Part shown: positions 5,617-50,176 of the stretch, piece by piece
How the letters are laid out: the number at the start of each line of letters is the position of its first letter
Position numbering within the stretch: position 1 is the stretch's first letter
NCBI GenBank assembly: GCA_001599295.1
Contig: BCGN01000004.1
Coordinates: forward strand, 128,138-192,137
DNA: 64,000 nucleotides
Direction of reading: 5' to 3'
Source of the DNA: Sporopachydermia quercuum
Taxonomy: Eukaryota > Ascomycota > Sporopachydermiomycetes > Sporopachydermiales > Sporopachydermiaceae
Translations under genes and position numbers: made by a program
The notes under the pieces: generated by a model
The model's input: only the letters and a program-made list of their open reading frames with translations
What the model was told of the DNA's origin: nothing
Databases searched by the model: none

Positions 5617-6996
5617 ATGCAAGGCTTCTCAAGGACGGTAAGAGCTTCTTTACGGCTCTCATCATGCTCTGGGGTTAGAGCTAGAAGAACCCTTGCCACA
5701 GCATTCGAAGGAATGCCAAAACCTCCTCTAGGATCTTCGGTTGATCTAAGCAACGTGACTATGCCGGAAAATGAAGTGTTGGGATTGGGCAATAGACCTA
5801 TTTATCTAGACATGCAAGCCACCACACCTACAGATCCAAGGGTTTTGGATATGATGCTTAGATTCTATACTGGGTTGTATGGAAATCCTCATTCTAAGAC
5901 CCACGCTTATGGCTGGGAAACAGAAGAAGCAGTGGAAGAAGCACGAGGATACGTCGCTAATGTGATTGGTGCTGACCCGAAAGAAATAATCTTCACTTCT
6001 GGTGCTACGGAATCGAATAATATGGTCATTAAAGGTGTACCAAGGTTTTACCGTAAAACAAAGAACCATATCATCACCACTCAAACTGAACATAAATGTG
6101 TGTTGGATTCTTGCAGACATATGCAGGATCAAGGATTTGAAGTCACATATCTTGGTGTTGATGCTAAAGGTAGAATCAGTTTAGAAGAGCTAGAAGCCGC
6201 TATCAAGCCTACCACTGCCTTGGTGTCTATTATGGCCGTTAATAATGAAATCGGTGTTATTCAGCCAATTGAAGAAATTGGAAGAATCTGCAGATCCAAA
6301 AAAGTTTTTTTCCATACAGATGCTGCTCAAGCATTTGGCAAAATCCCAATCGATGTCAATAAATGTAACATTGATTTGATGAGTATCTCTGGTCATAAGA
6401 TCTATGGGCCAAAAGGTGTGGGTGCCTGTTATGTGAGAAGAAGACCAAGAGTCAGATTAGAACCTCTAATCAATGGTGGCGGACAAGAACGTGGTCTGAG
6501 ATCTGGTACTTTAGCTGCACCTTTAGTCGCAGGATTTGGTGAAGCTGCTAGACTATGCGTTCAGGAAGCTGCTTATGATAAACAACATATTGAAAGGTTA
6601 TCCAAGAAACTGCTTGATGGCCTGTTATCAATGGAACACACTATCAGAAATGGTGATCCTGCCAACTCATATGCTGGCTGTGTCAATGTTTCTTTTGCAT
6701 ATGTTGAAGGTGAATCGCTGTTAATGGCTTTGAAAGANATTGCTTTATCTTCAGGTTCAGCTTGCACTTCTGCCTCTTTAGAACCTTCGTATGTGTTGAG
6801 AGCTTTAGGATCTGATGATGCATTGGCCCACTCTTCGATAAGATTTGGTATTGGAAGATTCACTACGGAAGAAGAAATCGACTATGTTCTTGAGGCAATC
6901 ACCAAGAGAGTGAACTTCTTGAGAGAAATGAGTCCTTTATGGGAAATGGTGCAAGAAGGAATAGATCTTGATTCCATCGAATGGAGTGGTCATTAA
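5617..6996 (+). CDS. NFS1: Mitochondrial cysteine desulfurase Nfs1
   Basis: This 459-residue PLP enzyme takes sulfur from cysteine to build Fe-S clusters on the Isu scaffold and also supplies sulfur for tRNA thiolation. An arginine- and serine-rich N-terminus ([16 protein letters not shown]) fits a mitochondrial presequence. The PLP lysine is in [10 protein letters not shown] (about residue 261). The persulfide cysteine is in [15 protein letters not shown] (about residue 383). The end [20 protein letters not shown] is the Nfs1 C-terminus that contacts Isu1. One ambiguous base (6738) leaves one residue undefined just before the active-site loop. CTG encodes the invariant Leu of GLRSGT, which fixes the genetic code. 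Its 3' end faces LEU2, as in S. cerevisiae. Confidence 0.97.
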
Positions 6997-37804: not shown

Positions 37805-39385
37805 ATGCAACTTTCATCTACAATCTTATTCTCAGTTTTGGCTGCTCTTGCAGCTGCCTCACCTGTACCAAAATTCCCTTCTCCTGTTCCTGTTGAAGAA
37901 GCAGCAAGAGAAGCCAGAACTTTGGTCTTCAGAGAGTCATTGACCAACCTCGTGACAATTCACCAAAAGGGTAAATTAGAAGGTACTCCAGTCTCTTTTG
38001 TTGAATACTATGCTGATTGCGATAACGAAGGTTCTCCTTACATCTTATCCCTTAACATTGGCACCTCATTTAGAAACATTGCTGAAGGCTCTCCTGCCTC
38101 ATTATCAATCAGAGTTGGTGATCATCCTTTCACTGAAAGAGTTGACCCCAACTACCCAGGTGGTATTGTCACCTCACCTGCTGGATCTCCTCGTATCTCT
38201 CTCGCCGGTAAGCTTGTTGATGTCACTGACCCACTTGAGATCGTTAAGGCTGAAACCTGTTTCCTTAGAAGACATCCTGAAGCTCATGCTTGGCTTCCAG
38301 GTAACCCCATCCACAAATCCAAATGGACCAAGTTTGATGTTGAAAATGTCTACTTATTAGGAGGATTCGGAGACCGTGCTTTCATTGGAGAAGTTCCTTT
38401 GGACTTGTACAAGTCAGCTAAACCAGTTCCCAGTCATGGTCCAGATCATGGCCCAGACCATGGTCCAGATGGTGAACATGAAGAACTTCAATTAATCAAC
38501 CAATCCGAAGATGGAGCACCAGCTGCTCCTTCTAACCCATGGAAGGACTACGGAAAGCAACAAAAGAAACACTGGAAGAAGTACGGTAAGCAATGGAAGA
38601 AGAAGTTCACTCCTCCTGCAGACTCTGATGATGAAGTCGAAGAAGAAGCCATTGAGGATATTCCCAAGGGACCTGCTCCTGGTGAAGATCCTTCTAAACA
38701 CTGGAAGAAGCACGGAAAAGATTTAGGAAAGAAATGGAAGAAGCACGGAAAGGACCAAAAGAAGAAGTGGACCCCTCCTTCTGACTCTGACGATGAATTG
38801 GAAGAACAAGCCGTCGAAGATATTCCTGAAGGACCAGCTCCTGGTGAAGACCCTGCTGACTACTGGAAGAACCACGGTAAGCAAATCGGAAAGAAATGGA
38901 AGAAGTTTGGCAAGGACCAAAAGAAGAAGTGGACTCCTCCTGCTGAATCGGACAATGAATCTGATTCTGAAGATGAATTAGAAGAACAAGCCGTCGAAGA
39001 TATTCCTGAAGGACCAGCTCCTGGTGAAGACCCTGCTGACTACTGGAAGAATTACGGTAAGCAAGTCGGAAAGAAATGGAAGAAGTTTGGCAAGGACCAA
39101 AAGAAGAAGTGGACTCCTCCTGCTGAATCGGACAATGAATCTGATTCTGAAGATGAATTAGAAGAACAAGCCGTCGAAGATATTCCTGAAGGACCAGCTC
39201 CTGGTGAAGACCCTGCTGACTACTGGAAGAATTACGGTAAGCAAGTCGGAAAGAAATGGAAGAAGTTCGGCAAGGACCAGAAGGAAAAGTGGGGTTCTGG
39301 TGTCGAAGAATTCGACAAGGAAGCTGATTCTATTTTAGAGCAAGCTATGGAAAAGATCCACGATATTGCTAACCAACTCTTTTAA
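37805..39385 (+). CDS. Secreted CREG-like protein with Trp/Lys polyampholyte repeats
   Basis: A 526-residue protein. Residues 1-19 form a classic signal peptide (MQLSSTILFSVLAALAAAS, cut near SP). Residues about 30-205 match the CREG family, an FMN-split-barrel fold related to pyridoxamine phosphate oxidase: TIHQKGKLEGTPVSFVEYYADC, then SPYILSLNIGTSFRNI, PRISLAGKLVDV, CFLRRHPEAHAWLPG and FDVENVYLLGGFGDRAFIG. A short HGPDHGPDHGPDGEH linker follows. Residues about 240-510 are tandem units alternating an acidic Pro/Glu segment (DIPEGPAPGEDPADYW) with a Lys/Trp segment (GKKWKKFGKDQKKKW). No KR dibasic Kex2 site is present in the repeats, although KK is common. CREG proteins are secreted or lysosomal glycoproteins, usually not enzymatic. 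The repeat tail is unfamiliar to me; a wall, aggregation or host-surface role is only a guess. Confidence 0.82.
   Translation: MQLSSTILFSVLAALAAASPVPKFPSPVPVEEAAREARTLVFRESLTNLVTIHQKGKLEGTPVSFVEYYADCDNEGSPYILSLNIGTSFRNIAEGSPASLSIRVGDHPFTERVDPNYPGGIVTSPAGSPRISLAGKLVDVTDPLEIVKAETCFLRRHPEAHAWLPGNPIHKSKWTKFDVENVYLLGGFGDRAFIGEVPLDLYKSAKPVPSHGPDHGPDHGPDGEHEELQLINQSEDGAPAAPSNPWKDYGKQQKKHWKKYGKQWKKKFTPPADSDDEVEEEAIEDIPKGPAPGEDPSKHWKKHGKDLGKKWKKHGKDQKKKWTPPSDSDDELEEQAVEDIPEGPAPGEDPADYWKNHGKQIGKKWKKFGKDQKKKWTPPAESDNESDSEDELEEQAVEDIPEGPAPGEDPADYWKNYGKQVGKKWKKFGKDQKKKWTPPAESDNESDSEDELEEQAVEDIPEGPAPGEDPADYWKNYGKQVGKKWKKFGKDQKEKWGSGVEEFDKEADSILEQAMEKIHDIANQLF
38536..39300 (+). repeat. Coding tandem repeat, 162-180 bp units
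   Basis: Units begin at tattcc(c/t)... 38659, 38821, 39001 and 39181; spacing is 162, 180 and 180 bp, after a degenerate first unit from 38536. The 38941-39060 and 39121-39240 blocks are identical, and 38881-38940 differs from 39061-39120 at a single base. The last unit diverges at its 3' end. This points to recent unit duplication or gene conversion. Confidence 0.9.
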
Positions 39386-41588: not shown

Positions 41589-42810
41589 CTATTTTTTATT
41601 GCTAACTTTTCTTTCCCATTGCTTTAACCCTCTAACAAACAATTCCTTATCTACTCCTTGGACATAATCATCTACATATACAAAATGAACCCCATACTCT
41701 TCTACTTCATTATTTCTCATCTCATCGTCAAAGAATACCATCTCCTCAAATTCATCGCCTGTGACTTTACCCAGTCTTCTGAAATGTGCCTTTTTTGACC
41801 CTGTTCCCCATTCCATATGGTCAAACCATTGAATGGCAGGTTTATTGTTGATGAACAGTCCTTGTAGAATAGCTTGTGCAGTATCAGGAGTAGGCGTTCT
41901 GCTGGCAGAAACAACTTTCACACCTTTGGTTTTCAGATGGATTATTATTTCTCGGACATCGGGAAAGAAATCTACTTCAGTGTTAGCTCTATCTTTCACT
42001 TTACCTCTAGATGCTATGATAGGAGTATATAGGCAATCGCAATAGTGCTGAAAATGTTAGTATCAGAATCAGATATTTGGTGTAAAGTGGAGAGTTGCCG
42101 ATAGGGCGTTGATAGGAAAAGATAAATGAGAATATAAATGGCATAGTAGTTGAGAGAATAAGCCTTTGGATATCGAATGAAGGGTATAGTACAGAGTGAG
42201 CGACAGTTCAGCAGAAAGTGATGAGGAATGATTGAATTTTTGAACATTGAATTGACTTGCTGTATTGGAAGGTAATATAAGTTGTACAGCTCATTTGAAC
42301 ATATCCAAGATTCTATAGAGCAACTCAATCCCGACTGAATGGCTAACAATTAGTTCCCGTTATCCAGACAGTTCATCCTTCATCCAATGGATCACTATGT
42401 TGATACCAACAGAAACGAAAAATCTAATGCAATTTTTTTTGCAGATTATAACGAATCTGTCCTAACTACTGCGGAAAGTCATTTATGAAACTATAGAATG
42501 TACTTGATATGATTTAATGCTCTGAAGAACACACCAATCACTCGTTCGTACCCTCCATTGCCATTGTACAGTCATATCTCCATTCTACCTTGAGCTCATC
42601 TCAGCAAATCAAATACTTACAGCTAATCTTTTGGTTAGTACCCTTTGAAACAAACCCTCAAACTGAAAAAATGCTACACGTAAGACTATTCATAACATTC
42701 ATCGTCTTCTTCTTCTACTTACGCCATAATGTATAATCAAGGTCAAATACAACTACCTTTGGATAGCTAGTGATATCCAATGAATCAAAATCCGTATTGT
42801 TTCTGCCCAT
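41589..42810 (-). CDS. Mg-dependent acid phosphatase MDP-1 (yeast YER134C type)
   Basis: A HAD-superfamily phosphatase of 182 residues, close to the 178 of yeast YER134C. Exons on the minus strand: 42810-42723, a 2-nt exon at 42622-42621, and 42047-41589. Exon 1 ends FDLDYTLW plus one base (C); the catalytic aspartates are D23 and D25. The donor is GTAAGT. Direct joining to exon 3 shifts the frame and hits a stop after 13 codons. Inserting CT makes the codon CCT (Pro30, conserved as WP in MDP-1) and continues HYCDCLYTP, which aligns with the yeast CYCDTHL. Exon 3 has VVSASRTPTPDTAQ (motif II) and MVFFDDEMRNNEVE (motif III). The family is thought to remove phosphate from glycated or sugar-phosphate proteins. 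An in-frame upstream ATG (42870) would add a hydrophobic leader; I prefer MGRNN. Confidence 0.85.
42621..42622 (-). other. Predicted 2-nucleotide microexon of the MDP-1 gene
   Basis: On the gene strand the order is TACTAAC (42640-42634), CAAAAGATTAG, then CT, then GTAAGTATTT. CT is thus bounded by a consensus branch point plus TAG acceptor on one side and a consensus donor on the other. It is phase-correct and supplies the last two bases of a conserved proline codon. An AG five bases closer to the branch (AAAAG) must be skipped; using it would give a stop. Confidence 0.75.
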
Positions 42811-43927
42811 TGTGAAAAAAATGGATAGGTGATATGCAGCTAGTGAGATTAAGCCAAAACGTAGAGCCATTATTTGATTGACGAAGCAAATCAAATGAAA
42901 ATAATGGAAAAGGCGGAGGAGAAGAAGCGGAAGTAGGGAAAAGAATGAAAGAGAGGAAAGATGAGACTGCAAAAGAAATTTAAGGTTATTATTTAAAGTT
43001 TGGAAATAAGTGGATGATTATACATTGACTTCAAACAGTTACTTAGAATGATTATTTGTTCTACTATGTTTTAATCAGAGCTATACTAGGAGTAGATATT
43101 CTTGACTGAAATAGGAAGTACTGGGAGTTCTAAATGTTTTGTACTTTTTGAGTCAGATTAGTCAGAGATCGGAGGCATTGAAGTATCAAAGGAAGAGGCA
43201 CTAACTACTGTTGGGTTATCTAGATCAATTCAAGCTTTTTAACTTCAAACTCAAAATAAACTTGAGGTAACTTAATCCTACAATCCCGCAAGAAAATGAC
43301 ATGAGAGTGCTGCAATAATGAAAAGTTTATCAATTGTATATAGCAAAATTTACAGCTTTTTAGTAATAAAATAGGGGAACTAACTTTCAAAAAACGGCCT
43401 TTTTCATTATTTGCAGTCATTTCCGAAACGTTTTTTGATTCAGTTTGATGACTAGCACCTGGTATCAAATAAACCTAAATAACTCCGATGCATTAAACTC
43501 GCATTTCTGCACAATTTTATTTCCTGCCNTTAAACTCAATTATCAGCTCCGAAACAACTAAATAACTCTTTCTTCTTTCTATTCATTTCATTCTGAAAGT
43601 AATACAAATATAGCATGAAAATACGTAGAATGAGCCATTTTCAATCTTATTGTCGTGCTTTAACTATGTTGGCCATGATTTGCGTATCAGTATACATATT
43701 TTTTCCCAGTAGTTAATGGATTCACTAAAATGACATACAGTGCTGATCCGGTGGTCTATGTTTTAGTAACTATCACCAACATATTAACGGAGGATCACTG
43801 ACCAGAATTCATGAACTTGACAATGTTTTGACCCTATTTGCCCCAGCAGAAATGCCGTTTCTTGTTTTATCGATTTCTCGATCATCGTCTGCATTGAAAA
43901 TCCCGACCCTTCCTCCCCAGTAGGCCT
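42811..43927. other. Intergenic region
   Basis: About 1.1 kb, AT-rich, no supported gene. One N at 43529. Confidence 0.5.
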
Positions 43928-47569: not shown

Positions 47570-50176
47570 ATGGTTTATAAACATCAAAAGGAAGATAAAA
47601 TGCTTTTCAAAACAGCAAGTGCCAATAGAAGAATCAACTTCGAAAGTGCCATCAACAGCAAAGGCATTAATATCAATAGCAGTAATAAAAATAATAATAA
47701 TAACACCATCATTAGCGCAAATCAGAACAATCTCAGCTACCAGCTCAGCCTAGCTAATCCTGTTGCTGATTTTCTGTATACTGCAACTGCTTCCCCTGAC
47801 ATTACCACTATCACTCCTTCAGACTCAGCAGCTAAACCATCAAACATAGCAAGAAATAGTAAAGCAAAAGAACGCATTTGTCCAAAACCCGCTATTACTG
47901 TCGCTAGCACTTCAGCTGAAAGCAGTAATTTTAATCCCATTCTGAGTGCTGCTCCTACTATCAACACTTATCCTGCCAACAACTCTTACTCCGTAACACC
48001 TAGTACACCGTCTAATCAATCATCATTACAATCAAGCAATCGACAAGGCAATGAAATCAGTACTGTAAATGAATCTCCATCACTAAGACTTCTCAGAAAA
48101 ATCAAAGAGGAGGATCTGGCGTACAGATCAAAGTATCTACAACACAGTAGTGAACCAAGTCAACTAGAAGGTTCCTCAAAACAGGGAGAGAAGAAACCAG
48201 AGAAGGAATCGCACAAGGAACTAGAAAAAAGACCAAAATCTATTCTGAAAACATCATCGGTCAGCAACTTCACAGTAAACACTAAAAAGGACCTTCTAAC
48301 TGGAAAAGAAAGACAGGATGAGCCAAGTAAACATTTCCAGGGGCAAATGATGAATACGGGCAGCAAGCTGGGTCAGTATAGTGGAACATCAAACAGTAAT
48401 GCAGCTATTCGTAAACATACTTCACCGTTTCGAATACGTGAAAGGTTCTGGAGTTTGTTTGCTGGGAATGCTAGTGGAGCTCCAGCTGAGGAAGATGCTA
48501 CTGGCAGTGTTGGTAGATCCGGTGATAGCAGCACGAACGCTTCTCATAAAGGAAAATATAAGGACAAGAATGGGAATACTGATAGAAATAATGAATGGAA
48601 TAATGAAAGGAATAGTGTTATGATCAGTTCTACTGAAGACTATGATACTGATGCTGAAACATATGCTAACACGCTTGCTAATGCACACACCAGCGATGTA
48701 GGAAGAATGTTTATTAGAAGTGACACTGATACAGATGAAATTGATAAAACTAGAACTGAGAATAGTTTTATTAGCAGTAATAATACTTATGTCTATGTTA
48801 ATGATCCTATCAATAGGAATGGTACTATCAGCAGTACTAATATTAGCGATAATACTAATAGTACCACTGCTAGCAGACACTCTGCCTTGTTATCTAACCA
48901 TCGGACACCAAATCAACATCCTCCTCAGCAAAGCAATTCGTTCCCTACTTCTTCTGATTCTCATTTTCACTCTCACTCATCCTCACATACTAAATTATCT
49001 TTCCTTCAACATAAACTACAAAGCAACAGCAAAGAGTTCAATGAAATAGCAAAAGAGGTCTTGGAAATGTCGTTTGACGATTTATTTCGCAATGGTTCAG
49101 ACAAAGAGCTGTATACGTTTCAATGGAACCATTTGACGAAGAATAGTAAGGACAGTGCTTTGGATCTGATCTATAATGTGTGGATCAGGAATGATGGAAA
49201 TAAACATAAGCATAGGGATATGGATATGGATAGGGATAGGGATAGGGATAGGGATTTTTGTAATAATAATGACAATTATGATGGTAGCAAGGACAGGAAG
49301 CACCAGTGTGGCCTTATTAATAGAAATGGTGTTGCTGGTTTTAGTAATAATAACTGTACCACCATCAGCAGCAACAGTACTGTCAGCAGTAGTTATGGTA
49401 GAGTTACTAGTGGCGAGGGTGGCGATGCGGTTAATACAACAAGTGAATATTCGATTGATTCTAAAGGGAGTTCAGTCGGTTCTGAAAATAGAGCAAATGA
49501 TAGAACAAAAAAACTAAATAGAACATACGACAGAATTATAGCCGATGCTTATTTGGCTGCTGATGCAAACAGTATTAATGTTGTCAGTGAAAAAAGTGCT
49601 AATATCATCAACAATAACATTCACACTATTAGCATTAACAGCAGTAATAGAAACAATAACAACACTTCTTCTATCGGGGCTTCAGACATTCGATCACTTC
49701 ATACTGTCACCGACTCCTCCAATTCTGGTAATTCCACTGCTACAAACCCTATCGCCAGTATTAGCAATACCAGCAACTTATCAAAAGCCATTCCAGAAAC
49801 CAATGGCAATAATAACAGAATTCATCACATTAGCAAAGCTCCTCATAGAAACCAAACACCTATCAACTACAATAGCAGTAGCAATCACAGCAATCTCAAA
49901 CCCTTATACTCCTCTTCCTCTCGGCCTTCTTCATCTTCTTCCTCATCTTCTTCTTCTTCCTCCTCCTACTCGTTTACTGCATTTTCAGCAACAATCAATC
50001 CAAGAGATCGCTACATAATAAAAGAATCGATCGACACTAAAAAGGTAACTCATTTCACCAAACTCCAGGCTGCATGGTTTCTTACAGCTTGTTTTATCAC
50101 AGAAAATGCCATAAGATTGCAATTAGTATTGTCGCTATCACTATGGTTATTATTACTCTTATTTAGATTATTCTGA
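47570..50176 (+). CDS. Large Asn/Ser-rich protein of unknown function
   Basis: An open frame of 868 codons. It is dominated by Asn, Ser and Thr runs, with a short folded-looking segment at about residues 475-545 (KLSFLQHKLQSNSKEFNEIAKEVLEMSFDDLFRN... and ELYTFQWNHLTKNSKDSALDLIYNVW), a charged DMDRDRDRDRDRD stretch (about 551-563) and a serine tract near residue 790. The last 45 codons become hydrophobic after a possible donor (AAG then GTAACT at 50045), so they may be intron read-through, with the true C-terminus in downstream exons at 50838-51046 and 51368-51400. I do not recognise the family. Asn-rich proteins of this kind are often regulators in yeasts, but no DNA-binding domain is visible. 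Confidence 0.6.
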   Translation: MVYKHQKEDKMLFKTASANRRINFESAINSKGININSSNKNNNNNTIISANQNNLSYQLSLANPVADFLYTATASPDITTITPSDSAAKPSNIARNSKAKERICPKPAITVASTSAESSNFNPILSAAPTINTYPANNSYSVTPSTPSNQSSLQSSNRQGNEISTVNESPSLRLLRKIKEEDLAYRSKYLQHSSEPSQLEGSSKQGEKKPEKESHKELEKRPKSILKTSSVSNFTVNTKKDLLTGKERQDEPSKHFQGQMMNTGSKLGQYSGTSNSNAAIRKHTSPFRIRERFWSLFAGNASGAPAEEDATGSVGRSGDSSTNASHKGKYKDKNGNTDRNNEWNNERNSVMISSTEDYDTDAETYANTLANAHTSDVGRMFIRSDTDTDEIDKTRTENSFISSNNTYVYVNDPINRNGTISSTNISDNTNSTTASRHSALLSNHRTPNQHPPQQSNSFPTSSDSHFHSHSSSHTKLSFLQHKLQSNSKEFNEIAKEVLEMSFDDLFRNGSDKELYTFQWNHLTKNSKDSALDLIYNVWIRNDGNKHKHRDMDMDRDRDRDRDFCNNNDNYDGSKDRKHQCGLINRNGVAGFSNNNCTTISSNSTVSSSYGRVTSGEGGDAVNTTSEYSIDSKGSSVGSENRANDRTKKLNRTYDRIIADAYLAADANSINVVSEKSANIINNNIHTISINSSNRNNNNTSSIGASDIRSLHTVTDSSNSGNSTATNPIASISNTSNLSKAIPETNGNNNRIHHISKAPHRNQTPINYNSSSNHSNLKPLYSSSSRPSSSSSSSSSSSSSYSFTAFSATINPRDRYIIKESIDTKKVTHFTKLQAAWFLTACFITENAIRLQLVLSLSLWLLLLLFRLF
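49215..49256 (+). repeat. Hexanucleotide repeat coding Asp/Arg dipeptides
   Basis: Tandem atggat and agggat hexamers code MDMDRDRDRDRD inside the Asn-rich protein. It is in frame and keeps the reading frame when its copy number changes. Confidence 0.85.

Follow-up and report, generated by a model that had tools for sequence, protein, structure and literature searches.

The MDP-1-like gene and its surroundings

An MDP-1-like phosphatase gene lies on the minus strand of the window, by which is meant the whole stretch of 64,000 nucleotides of Sporopachydermia quercuum DNA that was analysed. A family search of the genome (16.39 Mb, 12 contigs) returned two matches, which correspond to this gene's own two long exons; it is the single gene of the MDP-1 type there. 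Comparison with the lengths of homologues indicates that the inner ATG at 42810 seems a likelier start than the outer ATG, from which exon 1 is delimited in Table 1.

The initial annotation had described an exon 1 that ends in TGG-C at a GTAAGT donor, an exon 3 that opens in phase 0 after TACTAACATTTTCAG, and, between the two, a block reading TACTAAC-CAAAAGATTAG-CT-GTAAGT. All of these elements are present on the minus strand, with the exon 1 boundary at 42723/42722 and the CAC of exon 3 opening at 42047. The frame of exon 3 is fixed because an in-frame TAA sits immediately 5' of it (TAC-TAA-CAT-TTT-CAG). Direct joining of exon 1 to exon 3 breaks the frame, as had been claimed, and in the spliced translation a stop is reached 13 codons beyond the junction, giving a product of 62 aa; with CT included, translation continues to 202 aa.

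Table 1. Predicted parts of the MDP-1-like gene (window positions), putative short exons at other loci of the genome, and beta-tubulin records with an extra residue
Feature	Position	Strand	Description
Exon 1, MDP-1-like gene	42723..42870	-	outer ATG 42870; 3' end TTATGGC (TGG-C), phase 1
Intron 1	42623..42722	-	100 nt, GTAAGT...TACTAACCAAAAGATTAG; donor GTAAGT from 42722; acceptor TTAG to 42623
Branch site TACTAAC, intron 1	42634..42640	-	branch A 42635
Exon 2 (predicted), dinucleotide CT	42621..42622	-	makes proline codon CCT
Intron 2	42048..42620	-	573 nt, GTAAGT...TACTAACATTTTCAG; donor from 42620; acceptor CAG to 42048
Branch site TACTAAC, intron 2	42056..42062	-	branch A 42057; AG 9 nt downstream
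Exon 3, MDP-1-like gene	41589..42047	-	opens CAC; remaining phosphatase through to the stop; 3' limit calculated from the length of the 202-aa product
Beta-tubulin (L064)	G000:C1:1370939	+	1-nt exon G; GQA-G-NQ; Gly codon from three exons
NAC-beta, EGD1/BTF3-like (L078)	G000:C4:885751	+	1-nt exon G; RIGGKGTPRR; aligned with BTF3
ARP3-like (L079)	G000:C12:283283	-	4-nt exon ACAA in conserved DNGTG (VVMDNGTG); aligned with Arp3 chain 3dwl_A
FEN1/RAD27-like (L016)	G000:C3:1329044	-	5-nt exon GATGC = DA of VAIDASM (GRKVAIDASM); aligned with FEN1
Longer short exons			adenosine-kinase-like (ADO1) 16 nt; proteasome alpha subunit (PSMA) 20 nt; ZWF1 21 nt; TMA19 21 nt; UBC 26 nt
RPT2 (L080)			candidate 10-nt exon including one N; read by eye only
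Actin (L068)			candidate exon of ~14 nt; first exon not identified; read by eye only
Extra residue in GQxGNQ, beta-tubulin records P0275, P0280, P0281, P0294			Nadsonia I; Lipomyces tetrasporus T; Geotrichum candidum M; Dipodascopsis uninucleata N

The organisms named among the 120 LEU2 matches listed are, on our reading, all Saccharomycotina, and the top identity among those listed is 82%; neither these nor the MDP-1 matches listed include a close relative. Ten CTG codons were examined in LEU2 and a beta-tubulin; seven fall on columns where leucine is in the majority and three on Ile/Val/Leu columns, so that CTG is taken to be read as leucine. A quick beta-tubulin tree, built without support values and with 22 other sequences hand-picked from 120, places S. 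quercuum on a long branch, grouped with Geotrichum, Magnusiomyces, Trichomonascus, Nadsonia and Tortispora. Elsewhere in the window, an open frame of 526 aa (37805-39385, plus strand) contains tandem repeats that are almost identical to one another and have a high content of K, W and E (EDIPEGPAPGEDPADYWKNYGKQVGKKWKK...), and by eye looks secreted. A second frame of 868 aa (47570-50176, plus strand) is of low complexity, with a very high proportion of Asn and Ser, and shows no domain obvious by eye. The window also holds 19 isolated single N (for instance at 6738, 12192 and 43529), two of them in LEU2 (7283 and 7321), as if ambiguous bases had been masked.

Splice signals, protein evidence and competing readings

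Within the 675-nt interval that separates the two long exons, TACTAAC and GTAAGT each occur twice, solely at the predicted sites. Candidate internal exons were defined as frame-compatible, stop-free segments of at most 300 nt with AG/GT borders, lying no closer than 30 nt to either boundary of the interval. Of the 24 candidates so obtained, CT is the sole one with both signals perfect (13 of 13 signal matches, the runner-up having 10), and no longer insert with good splice signals was found among them. In dinucleotide shuffles of 654 nt of the interval, from which the first donor and the last branch-acceptor had been omitted, the arrangement TACTAAC-N3..28-AG-N1..8-GTAAGT arose in 3 of 20,000, and a looser motif that yields exactly a CN exon, and hence a proline codon, arose in 12 of 20,000. 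Across the genome, TACTAAC-N3..30-AG-N1..2-GTAAGT is found at four places on both strands together, against six for the reversed-pattern control, or about 8e-5 per 675-nt stretch. Enrichment was sought genome-wide by six pattern searches, all of which gave counts below those of the reversed-pattern control (45/60, 37/116, 15/23, 37/70, 91/103 and 4/6). As the genome at large shows no enrichment of the motif, the case for CT rests on its place, the frame and the residue that it encodes. An introner-like repeat was also sought by matching the interval to the genome, and the interval itself was the sole match.

The initial annotation carried the caveat that an AAG nearer the branch of intron 1 must be skipped. 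This AG (42629-42628) lies 7 nt past the branch A, and the TAG predicted to be used (42624-42623) lies 12 nt past it. Branch-to-AG spacing was tabulated for 20 introns of 10 genes, MDP-1 included; the models of the other genes rest on open frames and in several cases also on Pfam matches. An AG is likewise passed over at 4 nt past the branch A in FEN1 intron 2, at 6 nt in PSMA intron 2 and at 7 nt in ZWF1 intron 2, and thus the caveat is largely answered. A possible exception is ADO1 intron 2, where the AG apparently used lies 7 nt beyond the branch that matches best, the weaker TGCTAAT; skipping is therefore not an invariable rule. In the case of PSMA intron 1, the script chose a second, downstream branch-like site with an AG at 3 nt, and a TACTAAC is present upstream of that site. 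At none of the 20 tabulated introns was an AG at least 9 nt after the branch A passed over.

Residues 36-197 of the spliced product align with profile positions 2-169 of 169 of the Pfam family Acid_PPase (PF12689, curated cut-off 27 bits), with a score of 168.9 bits when CT is included and 26.7 bits when it is skipped. That CT supplies the proline expected after tryptophan is borne out by the homologues, since a proline follows the W of the D-x-D-Y/N-T-x-W block in all 120 listed (of 200 found; top identity among those listed, 48%). In all 25 homologue rows printed, W-P-x-W-C/V-D is kept with the very spacing that CT would give (W-P-H-Y-C-D). The alignment with human MDP-1 (2wm8) is gapless through LWP. 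The motifs DLDYT, SASRT, GSKK and FDDEMRN, which we take to be of the HAD type, are intact over the 202 aa. The W and the ASRT-like motif are 48 residues apart, compared with 49-54 in 114 of the 120 homologues and 64-69 in four (two gave no match), so that an insert somewhat longer than CT would be compatible with the length as well; the gap relative to human MDP-1 is, however, located further downstream.

The donor, the branch site, the spacing of the acceptor, the reading frame and the encoded residue are all in accord, and other conserved genes of this genome appear to contain exons of 1, 1, 4 and 5 nt. A two-nucleotide exon is much the best interpretation of the DNA, and we infer that CT is present in the mRNA. 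It is highly probable that the MDP-1 phosphatase gene comprises three coding exons, the middle one being CT, flanked by two GT-AG introns with consensus TACTAAC that are most likely removed successively by intron definition. The first of the alternatives was absent from the initial annotation and is a second, weaker in-frame route, in which a single intron would extend from the first GTAAGT to an ATAG acceptor ending at 42014 and TGG-C would join CA-TCT-AGA. The resulting frame is open for 190 aa, reads WPSRGKV with the proline after W retained, and keeps its Pfam match at 149.8 bits. Such splicing is nonetheless unlikely, as it costs 12 residues, including the Y-C-D that aligns with the W-C-D of relatives, and 19 bits of the Pfam score; it would also bypass a CAG 9 nt past the branch A for an AG at 43 nt, a bypass without parallel in the 20 introns, and would leave TACTAAC...TAG-CT-GTAAGT unexplained.

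An error of assembly or sequencing, whereby a gene that truly has one intron was frameshifted by a wrong base, is very unlikely. The isolated N of the assembly (19 in the window) do point to uncertainty at the level of single bases, but none lies within the MDP-1 gene, and a branch-acceptor-CT-donor block would arise by chance at the place where it is needed with a frequency of about 8e-5 to 6e-4, depending on the strictness of the signals; moreover, four more conserved genes appear to require an exon of 1-5 nt with signals of the same type. It is exceedingly improbable that the frameshift is genuine and CT coincidental in a pseudogene or decaying gene, given that this is the sole family member in the genome and that its motifs are intact when CT is included. 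Just as improbable is a nested, stwintron-like complex intron that would be excised whole in two steps to leave an mRNA without CT, as in the reticulon-like genes of Lipomyces. Nested complex introns with abutting donors are described in yeasts (PMC7138796), but a stwintron leaves no nucleotide in the mRNA, and excision of all 675 nt here breaks the frame (62 aa).

Other candidate ultra-short exons in the genome

The splice signals, the frame and the residue of the MDP-1 gene are read directly from the DNA, and at the same level of evidence the genome appears to hold further tiny exons (Table 1, where gene names beyond the Pfam and PDB matches are our own reading). These came from scans for TACTAAC-AG-short-GTAAGT/GTATGT combined with an in-frame splice test. 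The first set of 60 loci (30 of 45 plus 30 of 37 places, the sets overlapping) contained 20 with at least one in-frame pairing, among which MDP-1, FEN1 and one other site are each counted twice; MDP-1, FEN1, ADO1, PSMA, ZWF1, UBC and TMA19 were accepted, TMA19 (L018) having the support of the first version of the splice test alone. Pairings were obtained for 8 of the 15 loci of the second set, from which beta-tubulin was accepted, and actin as possible. The third set consisted of seven hand-picked places (from 37 and 91), six with a pairing, and gave ARP3 and NAC-beta, with RPT2 as possible; the first exon of NAC-beta was assigned by reading the sequence, the script's first exons being wrong. 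A fourth set of 20 hand-picked places yielded 10 with a pairing at the scanned site, and none was accepted, several being by eye ordinary exons that contain GTAAG or GTATG. A short-exon model for an ARF-like gene (L013) proved wrong, and a crude intron finder was abandoned for its excess of false pairs. Most of the scanned motif places had no splice support.

Homology supports the one-nucleotide exons of beta-tubulin and NAC-beta, the four-nucleotide exon of ARP3 and the five-nucleotide exon of FEN1. A further possible case (L098, G000:C6:778195, plus strand) is a putative AAG exon of 3 nt; the exon that follows it codes GRVSRVRRAGKGMVFFDL and is by eye aminoacyl-tRNA synthetase-like. For the five exons of at most 5 nt, the upstream intron measures 95-132 nt and the downstream intron 74-573 nt. 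In the one- and four-nucleotide cases, the in-frame route that dispenses with the microexon uses a GT four bases into the donor, and would give GQAGINQ, RIGIGKG and VVMGIGTG instead of GQAGNQ, RIGGKG and VVMDNGTG. This route fails for MDP-1, where the frame needs 3n+2 nt and the corresponding GT adds 4.

Database records of beta-tubulin from other yeasts are suggestive in this respect. Among the 120 matches listed (of 7978 found), 104 have a plain GQxGNQ region, four have one extra residue (Table 1) and 12 have neither. The codons of all four extra residues start with A, as would be expected if the gene predictor had missed a 1-nt exon and taken the GT at +4 of a GTANGT donor, and the extra I is what this route would yield in S. 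quercuum too. Judged from the protein records, these four odd sequences look like cases of a missed 1-nt exon. In five of the 12 records that lack the motif (those of Limtongia and Magnusiomyces, and three that name no organism), NQ is immediately preceded by R or S, the pattern that reading through an acceptor AG would leave. Plain GQxGNQ is found in Tortispora, Trichomonascus, Kockiozyma, Dipodascopsis tothii, Lipomyces arxii and L. japonicus.

These observations raise the prospect that core genes throughout the genome carry constitutive exons of extreme shortness (1, 1, 2, 4, 5 nt and longer). Some of these would be ancient, the 1-nt beta-tubulin exon being common to Nadsonia, Geotrichum, Lipomyces and Dipodascopsis and concealed there by misannotation. 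We consider this proposition evenly poised between true and false. If true, a spliceosome of the TACTAAC type would, by ordered removal, regularly deal with introns that have only 1-5 nt between their splice sites.

Proposed order of intron removal and comparison with known systems

The acceptor of intron 1 and the donor of intron 2 are only 2 nt apart and could hardly be bound simultaneously, and thus the most likely mechanism is successive removal, in which two ordinary intron-defined introns would be taken out one after the other. The initial annotation held that so short an exon would challenge exon-definition models; this is overstated, as consecutive intron-defined removal of both introns needs no exon definition. 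The 100-nt upstream intron would probably be removed first, once its acceptor has been transcribed, and its removal would rebuild exon1-CT|GTAAGT for the second step. CT would be retained whichever intron goes first, and would be lost only if donor 1 were paired with acceptor 2. As acceptor 1 is both nearer (100 versus 675 nt) and made earlier, direct joining of exon 1 to exon 3 might thereby be avoided; transcripts that skip CT would be frameshifted and encode the 62-aa product. Mago and SNRNP27 are encoded in the genome. In human cells, the EJC is described as blocking 5' splice sites near exon junctions (PMC6224609). Given that Mago is encoded here, the EJC could oppose the upstream-first order, and the reverse order is possible.

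Budding yeasts are regarded as intron-poor, as is also described in PMC4202332. The size of the CT exon, placed by the initial annotation among the smallest conceivable, is no record: exons of 1 nt are published for plant APC11 and VPS55 (PMC4674806, PMC8831610) and for Fusarium CYP621A (PMC12940212). Elsewhere in the fungi, the shortest exon given for Phanerochaete P450 genes is 6 bp (PMC1184071), and a Trichoderma paper states that experimental tests of fungal microexons had until then been made only in S. pombe (PMC11121469). The open-access literature matches listed include no report of a 2-nt exon, or of any microexon in a budding yeast. The occurrence of several tiny exons in one yeast genome is more surprising than the MDP-1 exon itself. 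If core genes do depend on exons of 1-5 nt, this yeast would offer a simple genetic system for minimal exon size, and could address the order of removal where the splice sites of two introns overlap, as well as the means by which skipping is prevented. There is also a failure mode for annotation, in which a missed tiny exon results in a false truncation or, through a GT four bases into the donor, in a false residue.

Of the known systems, the stwintrons and complex introns described in Lipomyces resemble what is proposed for MDP-1 in that two packed introns of a yeast are excised consecutively, but there no exonic nucleotide remains between the introns, whereas in MDP-1 CT must remain (PMC7138796). 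Recursive splicing, as outlined in PMC6224609, shares with the proposed mechanism a first splice after which a 5' splice site is restored next to the junction; the RS-exon can, however, be spliced out again, whereas the 2 nt of MDP-1 are kept in the predicted mRNA. MDP-1 has AG-CT-GT, and not the AG directly before GT of a zero-nucleotide recursive site. In the case of plant APC11 and VPS55, the likeness extends to a minute exon that lies between two introns and was missed by annotation, and for APC11 successive intron removal has been proposed; these are 1-nt plant exons supported by RNA, whereas the MDP-1 exon is a 2-nt yeast exon with TACTAAC branch sites, predicted from DNA (PMC4674806, PMC8831610). 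Similar to the beta-tubulin and NAC-beta exons is the 1-nt G exon of Fusarium CYP621A, which is likewise fungal and completes the glycine codon of a conserved motif (PMC12940212). That exon belongs to one gene family of a filamentous fungus and is documented by transcript reads, whereas those described here are predicted from the genome of one yeast, in several unrelated housekeeping genes.
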